Shown: positions 1,575-6,410 of the stretch, piece by piece
Position numbering within the stretch: the stretch's first letter is position 1
How the letters are laid out: the number at the start of each line of letters is the position of its first letter
Source of the DNA: Paenibacillus sp. 32O-W
Lineage (GTDB): Bacteria > Bacillota > Bacilli > Paenibacillales > NBRC-103111
DNA: 64,000 nt
Assembly (NCBI RefSeq): GCF_007679495.1
Contig: NZ_VEGP01000008.1
Location: 1-64,000 of the forward strand
Direction: 5' to 3'
Program-made: the position numbers and the translations under genes
The notes under the pieces: model-generated
Databases searched by the model: none
The model's input: only the letters and a program-made list of their open reading frames with translations
Told to the model about the DNA's origin: nothing

Positions 1575-1958
1575 GAGGGAAAACCAACATCGCATCCGGG
1601 TCGGTAAAGACATCGCAAAGACGAGCAAAAATACATTAAAATCGTGCCCTTTTCCAAAAAGAAGGCGAAAGACGCTCAAATGTGCAGGTCTTTTTCAAAA
1701 AATGGGGCCATTTCGCAAAAAATCGCTCCAAAGACCTGCATTATCGCTTTAGAATCAGGTATGTGGCGACTTTTCTCCAAAAAGACGTGCATTATCGCTT
1801 TAGAATAGGGGGAAAATTCCGGTGCTAGCGGTGCTGAAAAATCGCAAACTGGATTTTGGGGCAGCCCCTTGATTGAAAGAAGAGCTATCCGCCAAAACGT
1901 TCGGTTTTAAATAAGGAACTAAATAAGCTCTCGAAACTTATACTTTCTTTTATTTTTA
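1575..1958. repeat. Long dispersed non-coding repeat, copy 1
   Basis: About 385 bases closely related to 60203-60630 in the same orientation. Shared blocks include CGCATCCGG, GACGCTCAAATGTGCAGG, TGGGGCCATTTCGCAAAA, CAAAGACCTGCATTATCGC, GCTGAAAAATCGCAA, AAAACGTTCGGTTTTAAATA and the terminal AACTTATACTTTCTT. Inside, TGCAGGTCTTT and AAAGACCTGCA form an 11-bp inverted repeat, and GTGCATTATCGCTTTAGAAT recurs. No open frame is shared. Like copy 2 it directly abuts the terminator of a minus-strand operon. Confidence 0.75.
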
Positions 1959-1990
1959 AAAAAGAGCCCGACCTGTTTCAGGTCGAGCTC
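1956..1990 (-). terminator. Terminator of the agr-like operon
   Basis: On the minus strand GAGCTCGACCTG AAA CAGGTCGGGCTC is followed by TTTTTT. The stop codon of the LytTR gene (1980-1978) lies inside the hairpin. Confidence 0.85.
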
Positions 1991-2310
1991 TTCTTGTTTT
2001 CCTCCATATATCTTTTGATCCGCTTTTCATTCGATTCGGAAACGGTTGCGAAGGTACCGGCTCCCTCGAAGCTGACGATCTTTCGCTCGGAATCGTAACC
2101 GGACACATTCTTGAGATTAACGACGTTGGAGCGATCCAATCTCTCAAAACCGCTCGAATGATAGGCGGCATAAAGATCGGAGAGAGTGGTGGGGACGACA
2201 AATTCGCCTTCTTTAGTATGGACGTATATTGTATTTTTATGATTGGAGAAATACAATATTTCTTCCTCCTGGATTTCACAAGAAGAACCGTCATTTTTCA
2301 GAACACGCAT
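1978..2310 (-). CDS. Stand-alone LytTR DNA-binding regulator
   Basis: A 110-residue protein consisting of little more than a LytTR DNA-binding domain, as at the C-terminus of AgrA. Diagnostic features are the EEEILYFSNHKNTIYVHT beta-strand block, the FERLDRSNVVNLKNVSGYD segment (usually F-R-C-H-R-S-Y-I-V-N in the family) and the C-terminal basic tail. There is no receiver domain, so no phosphoacceptor aspartate. A good site (AAGGTGGGGAG) lies 3 bases before the ATG, and the gene starts 22 bases after the AgrD-like peptide. It is inferred to be the output of the agr-like cassette, controlled without classical phosphorelay, as proposed for LytTR regulatory systems with a membrane inhibitor. Confidence 0.85.
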   Translation of the reverse strand: MRVLKNDGSSCEIQEEEILYFSNHKNTIYVHTKEGEFVVPTTLSDLYAAYHSSGFERLDRSNVVNLKNVSGYDSERKIVSFEGAGTFATVSESNEKRIKRYMEENKKSST

Positions 2311-2332
2311 GTACTCCCCACCTTACTATCCT

Positions 2333-2458
2333 TTACTGCTTTTTCATAAGCTCTTTAGGCGCTTGCGGGCTGTGAAACATCGGTTTAAGGATTGCTGCAA
2401 ACACGACTGCGCAAGAAGCCAGGACGGAAGACGCGCACCGGGCTGCCATTTGTCTCAT
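2333..2458 (-). CDS. agrD: AgrD-like autoinducer precursor peptide lacking the core cysteine
   Basis: A 41-residue peptide with an amphipathic/hydrophobic N-terminal half (ASSVLASCAVVFAAIL) and an AgrD-type C-terminal recognition tail, HSPQAPKELMKKQ, matching the P-x-x-P-x-E-L pattern AgrB needs. Its ATG overlaps the agrB stop (ATGA) and GGGGGG lies just upstream, so translation is coupled to AgrB. In normal AgrD the cysteine (or serine) that forms the thiolactone (lactone) sits about five residues before the tail. Here that stretch reads ILKPMF with no Cys or Ser; Cys8 and Cys16 lie in the leader. Known: AgrB cleaves such tails and cyclises the product. Inferred: the mature signal is linear, cyclised in another way, or the peptide is decaying. 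Confidence 0.8.
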   Translation of the reverse strand: MRQMAARCASSVLASCAVVFAAILKPMFHSPQAPKELMKKQ

Positions 2459-2979
2459 AGCGTTCCCCCCTTTCTCCATGGTATAACTGTTAAGGACTGG
2501 ACCAGAAAGGCCAATCCAATAACATGCGAGCCAATAATGAAGTTGGAGCCGACCAAACCTATGGAAATCCATTTTAATAAAGGGTACATCTTGGCGGGAA
2601 TAGCGACGTTAGCATCCGGACGCGGGGCAAAAGTGATCATAACGGTCAGATTCGTGAGATTAATCAGGAAGAGCAGCGTTTCCGGATAGACGGGCACATG
2701 CGGAATTCCGGCACACAGCAGCACCGAGACGATATTGCAAGCCCACACCGACTTGAAGTGGGTGCCGCCCGACGCCATTCTTAGACTGCCTAAACCGATC
2801 AGGACCAGCAGTGTAGATGCCAACTCGCCGGTAGACCATCCGATTAACAACGAAGTTGCGACAATCAATCCGGTATTAAGCAGAATGCCTAACGAATACT
2901 GCATGACCTCAATGGAGTGAGTGCGGTCCGGATCGGCCTTCTTGATCGCCACGGCAATTCTATATGCTAAAGTGTTCAT
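2455..2979 (-). CDS. agrB: AgrB-like peptide-processing membrane protease
   Basis: AgrB is an integral-membrane cysteine endopeptidase that cleaves the AgrD precursor. The start at 2979 (MNTLAYR) gives 174 residues and has GAGGC upstream; an in-frame start at 3036 would extend it by 19 residues. The catalytic pair is present in GGTHFKSVWACN, with His and Cys seven residues apart as in Staphylococcus AgrB (H77, C84). About five hydrophobic segments follow the usual amphipathic N-terminus. It overlaps the end of the upstream sensor gene by 20 bases and the agrD start by 4, so the three are probably co-translated. Confidence 0.9.
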   Translation of the reverse strand: MNTLAYRIAVAIKKADPDRTHSIEVMQYSLGILLNTGLIVATSLLIGWSTGELASTLLVLIGLGSLRMASGGTHFKSVWACNIVSVLLCAGIPHVPVYPETLLFLINLTNLTVMITFAPRPDANVAIPAKMYPLLKWISIGLVGSNFIIGSHVIGLAFLVQSLTVIPWRKGGTL

Positions 2980-3631
2980 CTTCGCCTCTATCCTTTTTAT
3001 AAGAAACGTATAAGTACCCATATAGAATGACTGCATTGGCAGTTGGCACTAGAAAAAACAAACCCGATAGGTAGTTGGCAAAATACATCGTCAGCAGAAC
3101 GATCACGACGGAAGGAATGTTCAATATTAACAAAACCTTTTCCCATGTCTTAACCGCTATTTTCCCGCTGGGCTTGTCCGGCACGAAATCGAAGCCTTTG
3201 CGCTTCACCGATAGGATATAACCCGCTCCGATAGCCGTGGCCGCAGAAAGCGCCTGCAAAATAAACGTGCTTATGCTTAAAATATAAGGAATAGTACCGC
3301 TATCAAACAGTCCGGCGCTATCCATAATGAAATAATAGAGTGTTTGAATCAGCATGTAAGCCTGATACGCCATTCCCGTCAAAATAACAGCATAAAAAAC
3401 ATGAATTTTAAAGAGCAGCCATATAAAAGAAAACATGAGAAGAACTTGCACGACAACATCCGCTTGCGGCAACTCATAAACTGTTCTTAATACGTAAGAA
3501 ATGAACGACATAATGATACTCGCGAAGATCATTTCTTTAGGGAATAAATCAATTTTAAACAGTTTAAAAATCAGATAAAACATGGCATAAGTTTCCAGCA
3601 TGGAGAAACCGATATACAGCCATAAGTCCAT
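2960..3631 (-). CDS. Polytopic membrane protein, kinase-less AgrC-like sensor candidate
   Basis: A 223-residue protein with about seven hydrophobic segments (roughly residues 5-25, 35-52, 60-76, 80-98, 115-142, 165-185, 190-210) and a short charged C-terminus (YKKDRGEDEHFSI). The topology recalls the AgrC sensor domain, but the histidine kinase dimerisation and ATPase domains are missing and no kinase is encoded nearby. It is first in the agr-like operon. Either TTG 3634 or ATG 3631 could be the start; GGGAG lies 9-12 bases upstream. Inference: it senses the AgrD product and acts on the LytTR protein directly, or is an exporter/immunity partner. No family name is claimed. Confidence 0.7.
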   Translation of the reverse strand: MDLWLYIGFSMLETYAMFYLIFKLFKIDLFPKEMIFASIIMSFISYVLRTVYELPQADVVVQVLLMFSFIWLLFKIHVFYAVILTGMAYQAYMLIQTLYYFIMDSAGLFDSGTIPYILSISTFILQALSAATAIGAGYILSVKRKGFDFVPDKPSGKIAVKTWEKVLLILNIPSVVIVLLTMYFANYLSGLFFLVPTANAVILYGYLYVSYKKDRGEDEHFSI

Positions 3632-3681
3632 CAACCTGAAACACTCCCGCTGCCGACAAAGTTCGACTTTTTTCTATATCC

Positions 3682-3710
3682 AATATACTAGATGGAAGAT
3701 GTTTCTACAA
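3682..3710 (-). promoter_or_regulatory. SigA-type promoter of the agr-like operon
   Basis: On the minus strand -35 TTGTAG (3710-3705) and -10 TATATT (3687-3682) are separated by 17 bases, about 50 bases before the sensor gene. Confidence 0.5.
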
Positions 3711-4736: not shown

Positions 4737-6224
4737 TTACTCCACCGCCAATTTTCCTCTGTTAATCAGTTCGAGCTGCTCCTCCGAATAGCGGCCGATT
4801 TTATTTTTGGCCTGCACTCCGCTTAAGGTAATATCATAATTCTTCTTGATATATTGATGAAGCTTCTCCATGTCCTTCTCCGAAAGCTCTGCCAGTTCGC
4901 TCTTGCCGTCGATCTGGCCGAGAATAATCCCGATCACTTCCCCGGCCAGCGAAGTATTCGGCTGGATTCGGGCGCTTCCATAAGCTACTGCGGATGCCCC
5001 GACATTCTTCCCGGCCGTGAGCACGTTGGAATAGCCTTTTAACTGGAATGCCCGCAGCGGCATCCCATATTTATCGGGCTTGCCCGTGCTTGTCCCCCAT
5101 GGATTCGCCTGGTTGCCCTGAAGATCAATCGGATAGCCCGCTATGCTTACGTTATCCCAAAACATGGCTCCGCCCAACAGATCCGTCGCCTGCAGAACAT
5201 ATTCCGTTTCGTAGCGGGTCGAATCACGAATATAGAGGTAATCGGGATAGCCATTGACCTCGGCCTTCTCCCATCCCGGCAGCTGCTGCCGCAGGTGCTT
5301 GACCACCCGGTCCGTTTCGGTCTTCCCGGCTTCCAGCGCCTCCTGAATCCGCCGATCATCGGACGGGTCTACATTGAAAACAAGAAGGGCGTTAATCAGC
5401 GCTTCCCCATCCCGCTGATTAATGATGTTTAATCCGCGCAGGAACACATCCTTCTGGCTGGATGAATAGCTTTTCCCAATATTTCCGAATCCGTAAGCAA
5501 ACGTCCCGGTGAGATAGGTGTTCGAACCGTAGATTTCTTCCTTCTTATCCTGGCTCAGACTATTTATTTCTCCGGCAAACTTCTCCCAATCCACCTGGCG
5601 GAATTTCATCATGATGGATGCGGCCATATAATCCGTCGCTTCCCCGCCGAACACCGTCTCGATTCCTGGAATCCGCGTCGTCTCCAATCGGCTGGACAGG
5701 GCGCCGAAATCCGTATTCTCCACCCAATACTTGGCAGACACCGTCCTCTCTTCCCCGCCTGCAGTCCGGTAGGTGAGCGATTTGATTGTTTGCTTGGAAT
5801 GGGCATCCGGCTCGCTATCGATTTTCACAATCTGGATTCCCGATTCGATCGGTATCCCTTCGGCAATCGATTGGAAATAGTCCACGAACTCTTCTTTCTT
5901 GCGGATTTCCCCTTGTTTATAACGATCAAAGAGCTCCTTGACGCGCCCTTGCAGCAGCGATTGGCCGGCATCATCGAAGGGCTCGTCCAAATACAGCATC
6001 TCTCCCTGAATCAGCTGTCCGCCCGGCTGCTTCCGCGGATCGAGAACCATCACGTTAAGCCCTTCATCCGCAGCCGCCCGGGCCAGATACATCCCTTCTA
6101 TTTCGGAACCGATCAGCACGATATCCGGGTCCGAGCCCCGGTCTTTGCCCCCAGGCTTCTTCTCTCCTTCACAACCGGCAACAAGCAGTACGACAAGCGA
6201 CAACAGCCACACGACACGTTTCAC
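4737..6224 (-). CDS. Lipoprotein FAD-dependent oxidoreductase
   Basis: A 495-residue protein of the FAD_oxidored superfamily (FAD-dependent oxidoreductases of unknown substrate). The GTG at 6224 is preferred because GGAGAGGGG lies 7 bases upstream and it places a lipoprotein signal at the very N-terminus: KR, a hydrophobic run WLLSLVVLLV and lipobox VAGC. The mature protein should be anchored outside the membrane. The Rossmann fold follows at residues ~34-65 (DIVLIGSEIEGMYLARAA...MVLDPR); the dinucleotide loop is GSEIEG, not the canonical GxGxxG. PGGQLIQGEMLYLDEP and a C-terminal FAD-closing region (GKNVGASAVAYGSARIQP) are also typical. It has no operon partners. Confidence 0.75.
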   Translation of the reverse strand: MKRVVWLLSLVVLLVAGCEGEKKPGGKDRGSDPDIVLIGSEIEGMYLARAAADEGLNVMVLDPRKQPGGQLIQGEMLYLDEPFDDAGQSLLQGRVKELFDRYKQGEIRKKEEFVDYFQSIAEGIPIESGIQIVKIDSEPDAHSKQTIKSLTYRTAGGEERTVSAKYWVENTDFGALSSRLETTRIPGIETVFGGEATDYMAASIMMKFRQVDWEKFAGEINSLSQDKKEEIYGSNTYLTGTFAYGFGNIGKSYSSSQKDVFLRGLNIINQRDGEALINALLVFNVDPSDDRRIQEALEAGKTETDRVVKHLRQQLPGWEKAEVNGYPDYLYIRDSTRYETEYVLQATDLLGGAMFWDNVSIAGYPIDLQGNQANPWGTSTGKPDKYGMPLRAFQLKGYSNVLTAGKNVGASAVAYGSARIQPNTSLAGEVIGIILGQIDGKSELAELSEKDMEKLHQYIKKNYDITLSGVQAKNKIGRYSEEQLELINRGKLAVE

Positions 6225-6410
6225 TCCAAATCCCCTCTCCCTGTTCACTCTCTCTTGGTACAACTATGCAAAAGGATAGCAAATCCGGCGCCTGATTTCC
6301 AGCGAACGATCCGGCCTGGGCGAGCGGTCTCCCTCCCCGCCGTTTTCAACAGGGACCGCAATCCGGTTCCATTCGTTGTGCAAGCATATTCGAAGAATAT
6401 TTTTTTCCAC

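Follow-up and report, generated by a model that had tools for sequence, protein, structure and literature searches.

An agr-type operon with a lysine-type AgrD and no kinase gene in Paenibacillus sp. 32O-W

We found that the window (the first 64,000 nucleotides of contig NZ_VEGP01000008.1 from Paenibacillus sp. 32O-W) carries a four-gene operon on the minus strand, read from the sequence at 1956-3710 in the order sensor, AgrB, AgrD-like peptide and LytTR protein. The operon is conserved, the active site of its AgrB is intact, its sensor is homologous to receptor kinases, and a Lys stands at the place equivalent to the ring Cys or Ser of AgrD. The best explanation, taken as a whole, is a self-contained, kinase-free agr-type module in which a peptide closed through Lys would be sensed by a receptor that controls LytTR, with cyclisation through Lys, peptide binding, LytTR release and autoregulation as the steps that we infer. 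We give this complete scheme an even chance.

The operon and its distribution

The features of the operon are listed below.

3705..3710, minus strand: -35 element TTGTAG, which lines up with the TTGTTG-17-TATAAT promoter of Lys-type operons
3682..3687, minus strand: -10 element TATATT after a spacer of 17 nt, read directly and by clade alignment
2960..3631, minus strand: sensor of 223 aa with seven transmembrane segments and no kinase, a candidate peptide receptor by homology to the N-terminal domain of AgrB-linked kinases
2455..2979, minus strand: AgrB peptidase of 174 aa with His74/Cys81 (PF04647, E=1.6e-17), the sole AgrB in the genome
2333..2458, minus strand: AgrD-like signal precursor of 41 aa, with Lys25 replacing the ring Cys/Ser (direct reading and survey)
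2384..2386, minus strand: Lys25 codon of AgrD, the predicted ring-closing residue (anchor Pro34 minus 9; shared by every Lys-type AgrD)
1978..2310, minus strand: bare LytTR protein of 110 aa without a receiver (PF04397, E=6.4e-15; alignment)
1956..1990, minus strand: intrinsic terminator (fold -26.5 kcal/mol, z=-8.7)

The initial annotation had read these genes as a single operon with promoter and terminator, and both elements hold up, the promoter by its alignment across the clade and the terminator by its z-score of -8.7. A generic promoter scan did not flag the operon promoter. In a comparison of upstream regions, TTGTTG-17-TATAAT was located at the same place in most main-clade Lys-type operons, and the window has TTGTAG-17-TATATT. 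The overlaps reported earlier, 20 nt between sensor and AgrB and 4 nt between AgrB and AgrD, are exact, and a gap of 22 nt separates AgrD from LytTR. The sensor starts with the ATG at 3631, and the TTG at 3634 is a possible alternative start. The longer AgrB ORF from 3036 adds a 5' extension, which is unnecessary.

Compared with the ortholog in the nearest named relative, Paenibacillus sp. J2TS4 (L084), all four genes are under purifying selection (dN/dS of 0.06 for the sensor, 0.16 for AgrB, 0.03 for AgrD and 0.13 for LytTR). These values and the conservation of the operon rule out a pseudogene or a decaying operon.

Elsewhere in the window, a 26-nt direct repeat (96% identical, 1730-1755 and 1781-1806) lies downstream of the operon terminator, and an IS200-like transposase (Y1_Tnp, 2.7e-42) is located at 104-502, near the left end. 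A FAD-dependent oxidoreductase (PF12831) is encoded at 4737-6263, and its N-terminal hydrophobic, Cys-containing stretch resembles a lipoprotein signal.

The window genome (5.76 Mb in 235 contigs) encodes a single AgrB, a single sensor and two LytTR proteins. AgrB is present in 194 of 298 genomes of the order Paenibacillales, and the sensor in 27 of the 59 genomes searched. A neighbourhood search for AgrB with LytTR and a kinase-less partner had been proposed for this locus; it recovered the sensor-AgrB-(AgrD)-LytTR quartet in 99 of 145 distinct AgrB loci dissected in the order. Another 24 of these loci carry the sensor and AgrB with no LytTR gene detected within 1 kb, so that a kinase-less sensor stands beside AgrB in 123/145 loci in total. 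The remainder comprises 3 sensor-kinase fusions, 14 loci with a canonical GHKL AgrC and 5 with neither. Negatives in all these counts are soft, since the search profiles derive from proteins of the window itself and the flanks spanned 1.5-10 kb. The sensor gene follows AgrB in L104, L110, L132, L178 and L196.

The lysine of the AgrD-like peptide

The window AgrD (MRQMAARCASSVLASCAVVFAAILKPMFHSPQAPKELMKKQ) has an amphipathic leader and a PKEL tail of the P-x-E-L type. We numbered AgrD cores from the Pro of this PKEL-type tail (anchor P; Pro34 in the window). On this count, the Cys of S. aureus AgrD lies at P-10 and the cut follows P-6. In the window peptide, neither P-9 nor P-10 is a Cys or Ser, and Lys25 is found at the equivalent place. 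The earlier call of an AgrD-like peptide stands as far as the presence of such a peptide goes, but the ring Cys/Ser is absent, and the Lys in its place had been overlooked.

In the survey of the order, Lys is at P-9 in 56 distinct AgrD cores and Cys or Ser is at P-10 in 40, where the Lys class is defined by the Lys itself, two cores (one with Cys at P-11, one with Thr) lie outside all classes, and a small number of AgrD whose anchor was unclear or whose gene order differed were read by eye. All 12 AgrC-linked cores have Cys at P-10, and five cores of the order have Ser at P-9. A hydrophobic residue occupies P-6 in 56/56 cores of the Lys type and 34/40 of the Cys/Ser type, and in both types His, Gly or Tyr predominates at P-5. 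No other core Cys or Ser is conserved throughout the Lys-type sets. Outside the order, no Lys-type AgrD was found among about 18 AgrD from 30 loci. One genome carries two complete Lys-type quartets in tandem (L144:1100-4600), and in one AgrD core of L144 a Cys at P-10 is followed by a Lys at P-9 (FASVCKLTLHSPEIPQEL).

In S. aureus, the AgrB-AgrD thioester is attacked by the AgrD Cys, which yields the 16-membered thiolactone AIP-I (PMC4979651). The Lys stands one residue closer to the cut than Cys/Ser (P-9 versus P-10), and its side chain adds three more ring atoms than theirs, the equivalent of one backbone residue, which keeps the macrocycle at the same size. Thus, either arrangement yields a ring of 16 atoms for a cut at P-6 and of 19 for a cut at P-5.

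We propose that AgrB would cut the C-terminal tail of AgrD between Phe28 and His29, the place equivalent to the S. aureus cut, and would keep the cut peptide bound to Cys81 through a thioester. The amine on the side chain of Lys25 would then attack this thioester, forming a 16-membered Lys-Pro-Met-Phe lactam with the ring size of the known thiolactones. From the sequence comparison, we place such a Lys lactam autoinducer slightly short of an even chance.

Conservation of the Lys could also reflect receptor recognition of a linear peptide. Here, AgrB would cut AgrD and the acyl-enzyme would be hydrolysed, the linear Lys peptide would be the signal, and the Lys would be kept for recognition by the receptor or a leader peptidase. 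At neutral pH most of the Lys amine carries a proton, which we count in favour of a linear signal. Furthermore, the AIP rings tabulated in a 2025 review all begin with Cys or Ser, and none of them is closed through an amine (PMC12312760). However, the shift between Lys and Cys/Ser is exactly one residue and leaves the ring size constant, the hydrophobic P-6 and the His, Gly or Tyr at P-5 are kept, and no alternative core Cys or Ser is conserved. We consider the linear peptide unlikely, although it deserves serious weight.

For the preferred lactam route, the thioester would form on an active site that is intact, as initially annotated: AgrB matches PF04647 (1.6e-17) and keeps both His74 and Cys81. 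In the alignment, no substitution occurs at R67, G72, H74 or C81 among 52 Lys-type and 46 Cys/Ser-type enzymes. Positions 121-131 differ between the two types, a difference inseparable from clade effects. On the tree, Lys-type and Cys/Ser-type AgrB separate with 3-4 changes, and a single Lys-type AgrB clade is compatible with the tree test (p-AU 0.74). Since the Lys-type enzymes possibly form one AgrB clade, the Lys may have arisen once, long ago, rather than by repeated convergence. The idea that it arose several times was set aside, as one Lys-type clade was not rejected.

The window AgrD has no NCBIfam AgrD match at E<=1, and the L084 ortholog scores 10.8 bits against TIGR04223, whose curated cut-off is 19 bits. 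The curated AgrD model TIGR04223 misses the Lys type. We found no report of Lys-lactam AIP chemistry or of a Lys-type AgrD in the literature searched, with most subscription journals outside reach.

The kinase-less sensor and the LytTR output

The sensor has seven hydrophobic segments, and its ORF stops after TM7 without a kinase domain, in agreement with the initial annotation of a seven-segment membrane protein that lacks a histidine kinase. It has no match in Pfam (E<=1) or NCBIfam, and neither DUF3021 nor DUF2154 was detected. The positive-inside pattern and the family alignment place the N-terminus outside and the C-terminus inside. In the alignment, a cytosolic KxGFxFVP motif is conserved between TM5 and TM6, and G146 is invariant. 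No solved structures related to the sensor or AgrB were found, and AlphaFold run on two sensor sequences (window and L084) returned seven helices at a pLDDT of 46 and no usable fold.

In a profile comparison, the sensor family aligns with the N-terminal domain of the AgrB-linked kinases of family f8 (hhalign 99.9%, E 2e-34). These kinases (L070, L071, L080) contain HATPase_c and share an NHTIKNE-type motif whose His is invariant. Compared with canonical AgrC, the sensor gives a collinear match to the membrane domain (hhalign 46%, E 2e-4), and because this score is only 46% we do not call the sensor a truncated AgrC. Its homology to the membrane domain of the f8 kinases indicates that the sensor is probably a peptide receptor whose kinase is missing.

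Beyond the order, a profile search revealed sensor-related membrane proteins of 150-170 aa that adjoin AgrB, mostly with a separate GHKL kinase. The sensor domain is therefore found fused to a kinase, paired with a kinase or kinase-free, which defines it as an AgrB-associated sensor module. Split receptor-kinase clusters (sensor relative, GHKL kinase and AgrB) were observed in other classes of the phylum at L202, L205, L206, L208-L211, L213-L215, L217, L219-L222, L224 and L225. Tandem sensor paralogs, up to six, were seen without extra AgrB (L050:9847-14220, L052:10215-12860, L053:4730-6503; two family f4 genomes). In two loci outside the order, a DUF4118-like protein that contains a GGDEF domain comes after kinase-less sensor-AgrB pairs (L203:2643-3413, L218:2751-3425).

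The conserved agr-type unit and the homology between the sensor and the AgrB-linked kinases make peptide control without an in-operon kinase likely, and we rate peptide signalling through a kinase-less receptor as fairly probable. The released cyclic peptide would be sensed by the 7-TM protein, whose cytosolic face (the KxGFxFVP loop and the C-tail) would control LytTR by direct contact. In the simplest form, the sensor would retain LytTR at the membrane until the peptide binds, and the freed LytTR would switch target promoters, perhaps its own among them. Direct control of LytTR by the receptor is in our judgement evenly balanced between true and false.

Alternatively, the 7-TM protein may be an accessory protein or exporter for AgrB/AgrD, with LytTR as a free one-component regulator. 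The 20-nt overlap of the sensor gene with agrB and its place as the most constant partner of AgrB are consistent with this role, as is the fact that the AIP export route is not known (PMC12312760). However, the sensor domain forms the N-terminal part of the f8 histidine kinases beside AgrB, sensor relatives pair with a separate kinase in other classes, and sensor paralogs are amplified without extra AgrB. An accessory or exporter role is rather unlikely.

We prefer a receptor that acts on LytTR. The LytTR protein had been described as stand-alone and free of a receiver, and indeed its 110 aa match only PF04397 (6.4e-15). The alignment shows that it retains the D-R-S-x-x-V-N core; against solved structures, its match to the AgrA LytTR domain is marginal. 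In the LytTR operon slot, relatives L135, L155 and L172 encode a double LytTR protein. The same slot holds LytTR-GGDEF-EAL at L136:2587-4201, L173:1-1535 and L189:1-1578, and LytTR-GGDEF at L079:1-1069. A LytTR fused to GGDEF-EAL downstream of sensor-AgrB-AgrD fits LytTR as a receptor-coupled module, and such fusions might couple peptide quorum sensing directly to cyclic di-GMP. Proteins that fuse the sensor itself to LytTR were not found. We advance only tentatively, with more doubt than confidence, the wider proposal that Lys side-chain lactam AIPs, made by AgrB enzymes of the order, may be a third chemistry next to thiolactone and lactone, sensed by a kinase-less receptor that acts on bare LytTR or, in some relatives, on LytTR-GGDEF-EAL.

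Another explanation is that a LytTR regulatory system of the HdrRM/BrsRM type is merely linked to agrBD by chance. A bare LytTR and a kinase-less membrane protein do share one operon here, and the initial annotation had inferred kinship with such systems. This kinship is not supported: DUF3021 and DUF2154 are absent, and the gene order is reversed. LytTR regulatory systems have 9-bp direct repeats with 11-13 bp spacing upstream of the -35 (PMC6193735), and among 43 promoters we found no LytTR-type 9-12-9 direct repeats in this region, a search that divergent repeats could escape. The best repeat self-match over these promoters was 4.47 of 9, and column-shuffled maxima had a median of 4.37 and a 95% value of 4.98. 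The link to the known LytTR regulatory systems is an analogy only, and a chance linkage of this kind is improbable.

A cognate AgrC kinase and AgrA elsewhere that act on this AgrD had been named as evidence against kinase-free signalling. That objection holds in part: contig C96 of the same genome encodes an AgrC-like/AgrA-like pair (L044:5804-9658), beside an ABC transporter and with no AgrB near. The kinase scores 202 bits against NF046015 AgrC and the regulator 224 bits against NF046049 AgrA, both below the model cut-offs. In principle, this pair could sense the peptide, leaving the sensor and LytTR genes to do something else. However, the kinase occurs in 3 of the 59 genomes searched (window genome included) and the sensor in 27 of them, and canonical AgrC loci have their own AgrB of a different clade and a Cys-type AgrD. 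Because it lacks AgrB and its kinase is so rare, the C96 pair is an unlikely partner; this explanation is very improbable, and canonical agr with a distant kinase, unlinked to AgrB and rare in relatives, was rejected.

Significance and comparison with known systems

If the kinase-free module operates as proposed, cyclic-peptide quorum sensing can run without phosphorelay, and an amide-closed relative joins the thiolactone and lactone signals. By chemical reasoning, the lactam should resist hydrolysis, and its formation from the thioester should be strongly downhill. Lys at anchor P-9 would serve as a genome-mining rule for signals missed by the current AgrD model. Peptide quorum sensing would be found across much of a large bacterial order from soil and plants, linked to cyclic di-GMP enzymes, and control of a bare LytTR would become a testable question in a four-gene system.

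With agrBDCA (S. aureus; also fsr and lam), the window operon shares the His/Cys pair of AgrB, the AgrD leader, core and P-x-E-L type tail, and a membrane sensor and LytTR output encoded alongside. In contrast to agrBDCA, it has no kinase and no receiver, its sensor gene lies upstream of agrB, the ring position of its AgrD is Lys instead of Cys/Ser, and the match between sensor and AgrC reaches only 46%. The peptide resembles the cyclic lactone autoinducer peptides of TIGR04223 in size, amphipathic leader and PxEL tail, but it does not match the model and lacks the Cys/Ser nucleophile.

The receptor kinases of family f8 (L070, L071, L080) have a homologous sensor domain and clustered AgrB and AgrD; L070 and L071 have a Lys-type AgrD and L080 a Ser-type one. 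Their sensor is fused to a HATPase_c kinase, and no bare LytTR adjoins it. The LytTR regulatory systems (HdrRM, BrsRM; PMC6193735) likewise combine a bare LytTR with a kinase-less membrane partner in one operon. The window operon differs from them in having no DUF3021/DUF2154, in placing the membrane gene first and in the direct repeats, which were not found, and it adds a peptide signal of its own and the enzyme that processes it. Taken together, the window operon most likely works like agr and has an output like that of a LytTR regulatory system, yet lacks some of the defining features of both.
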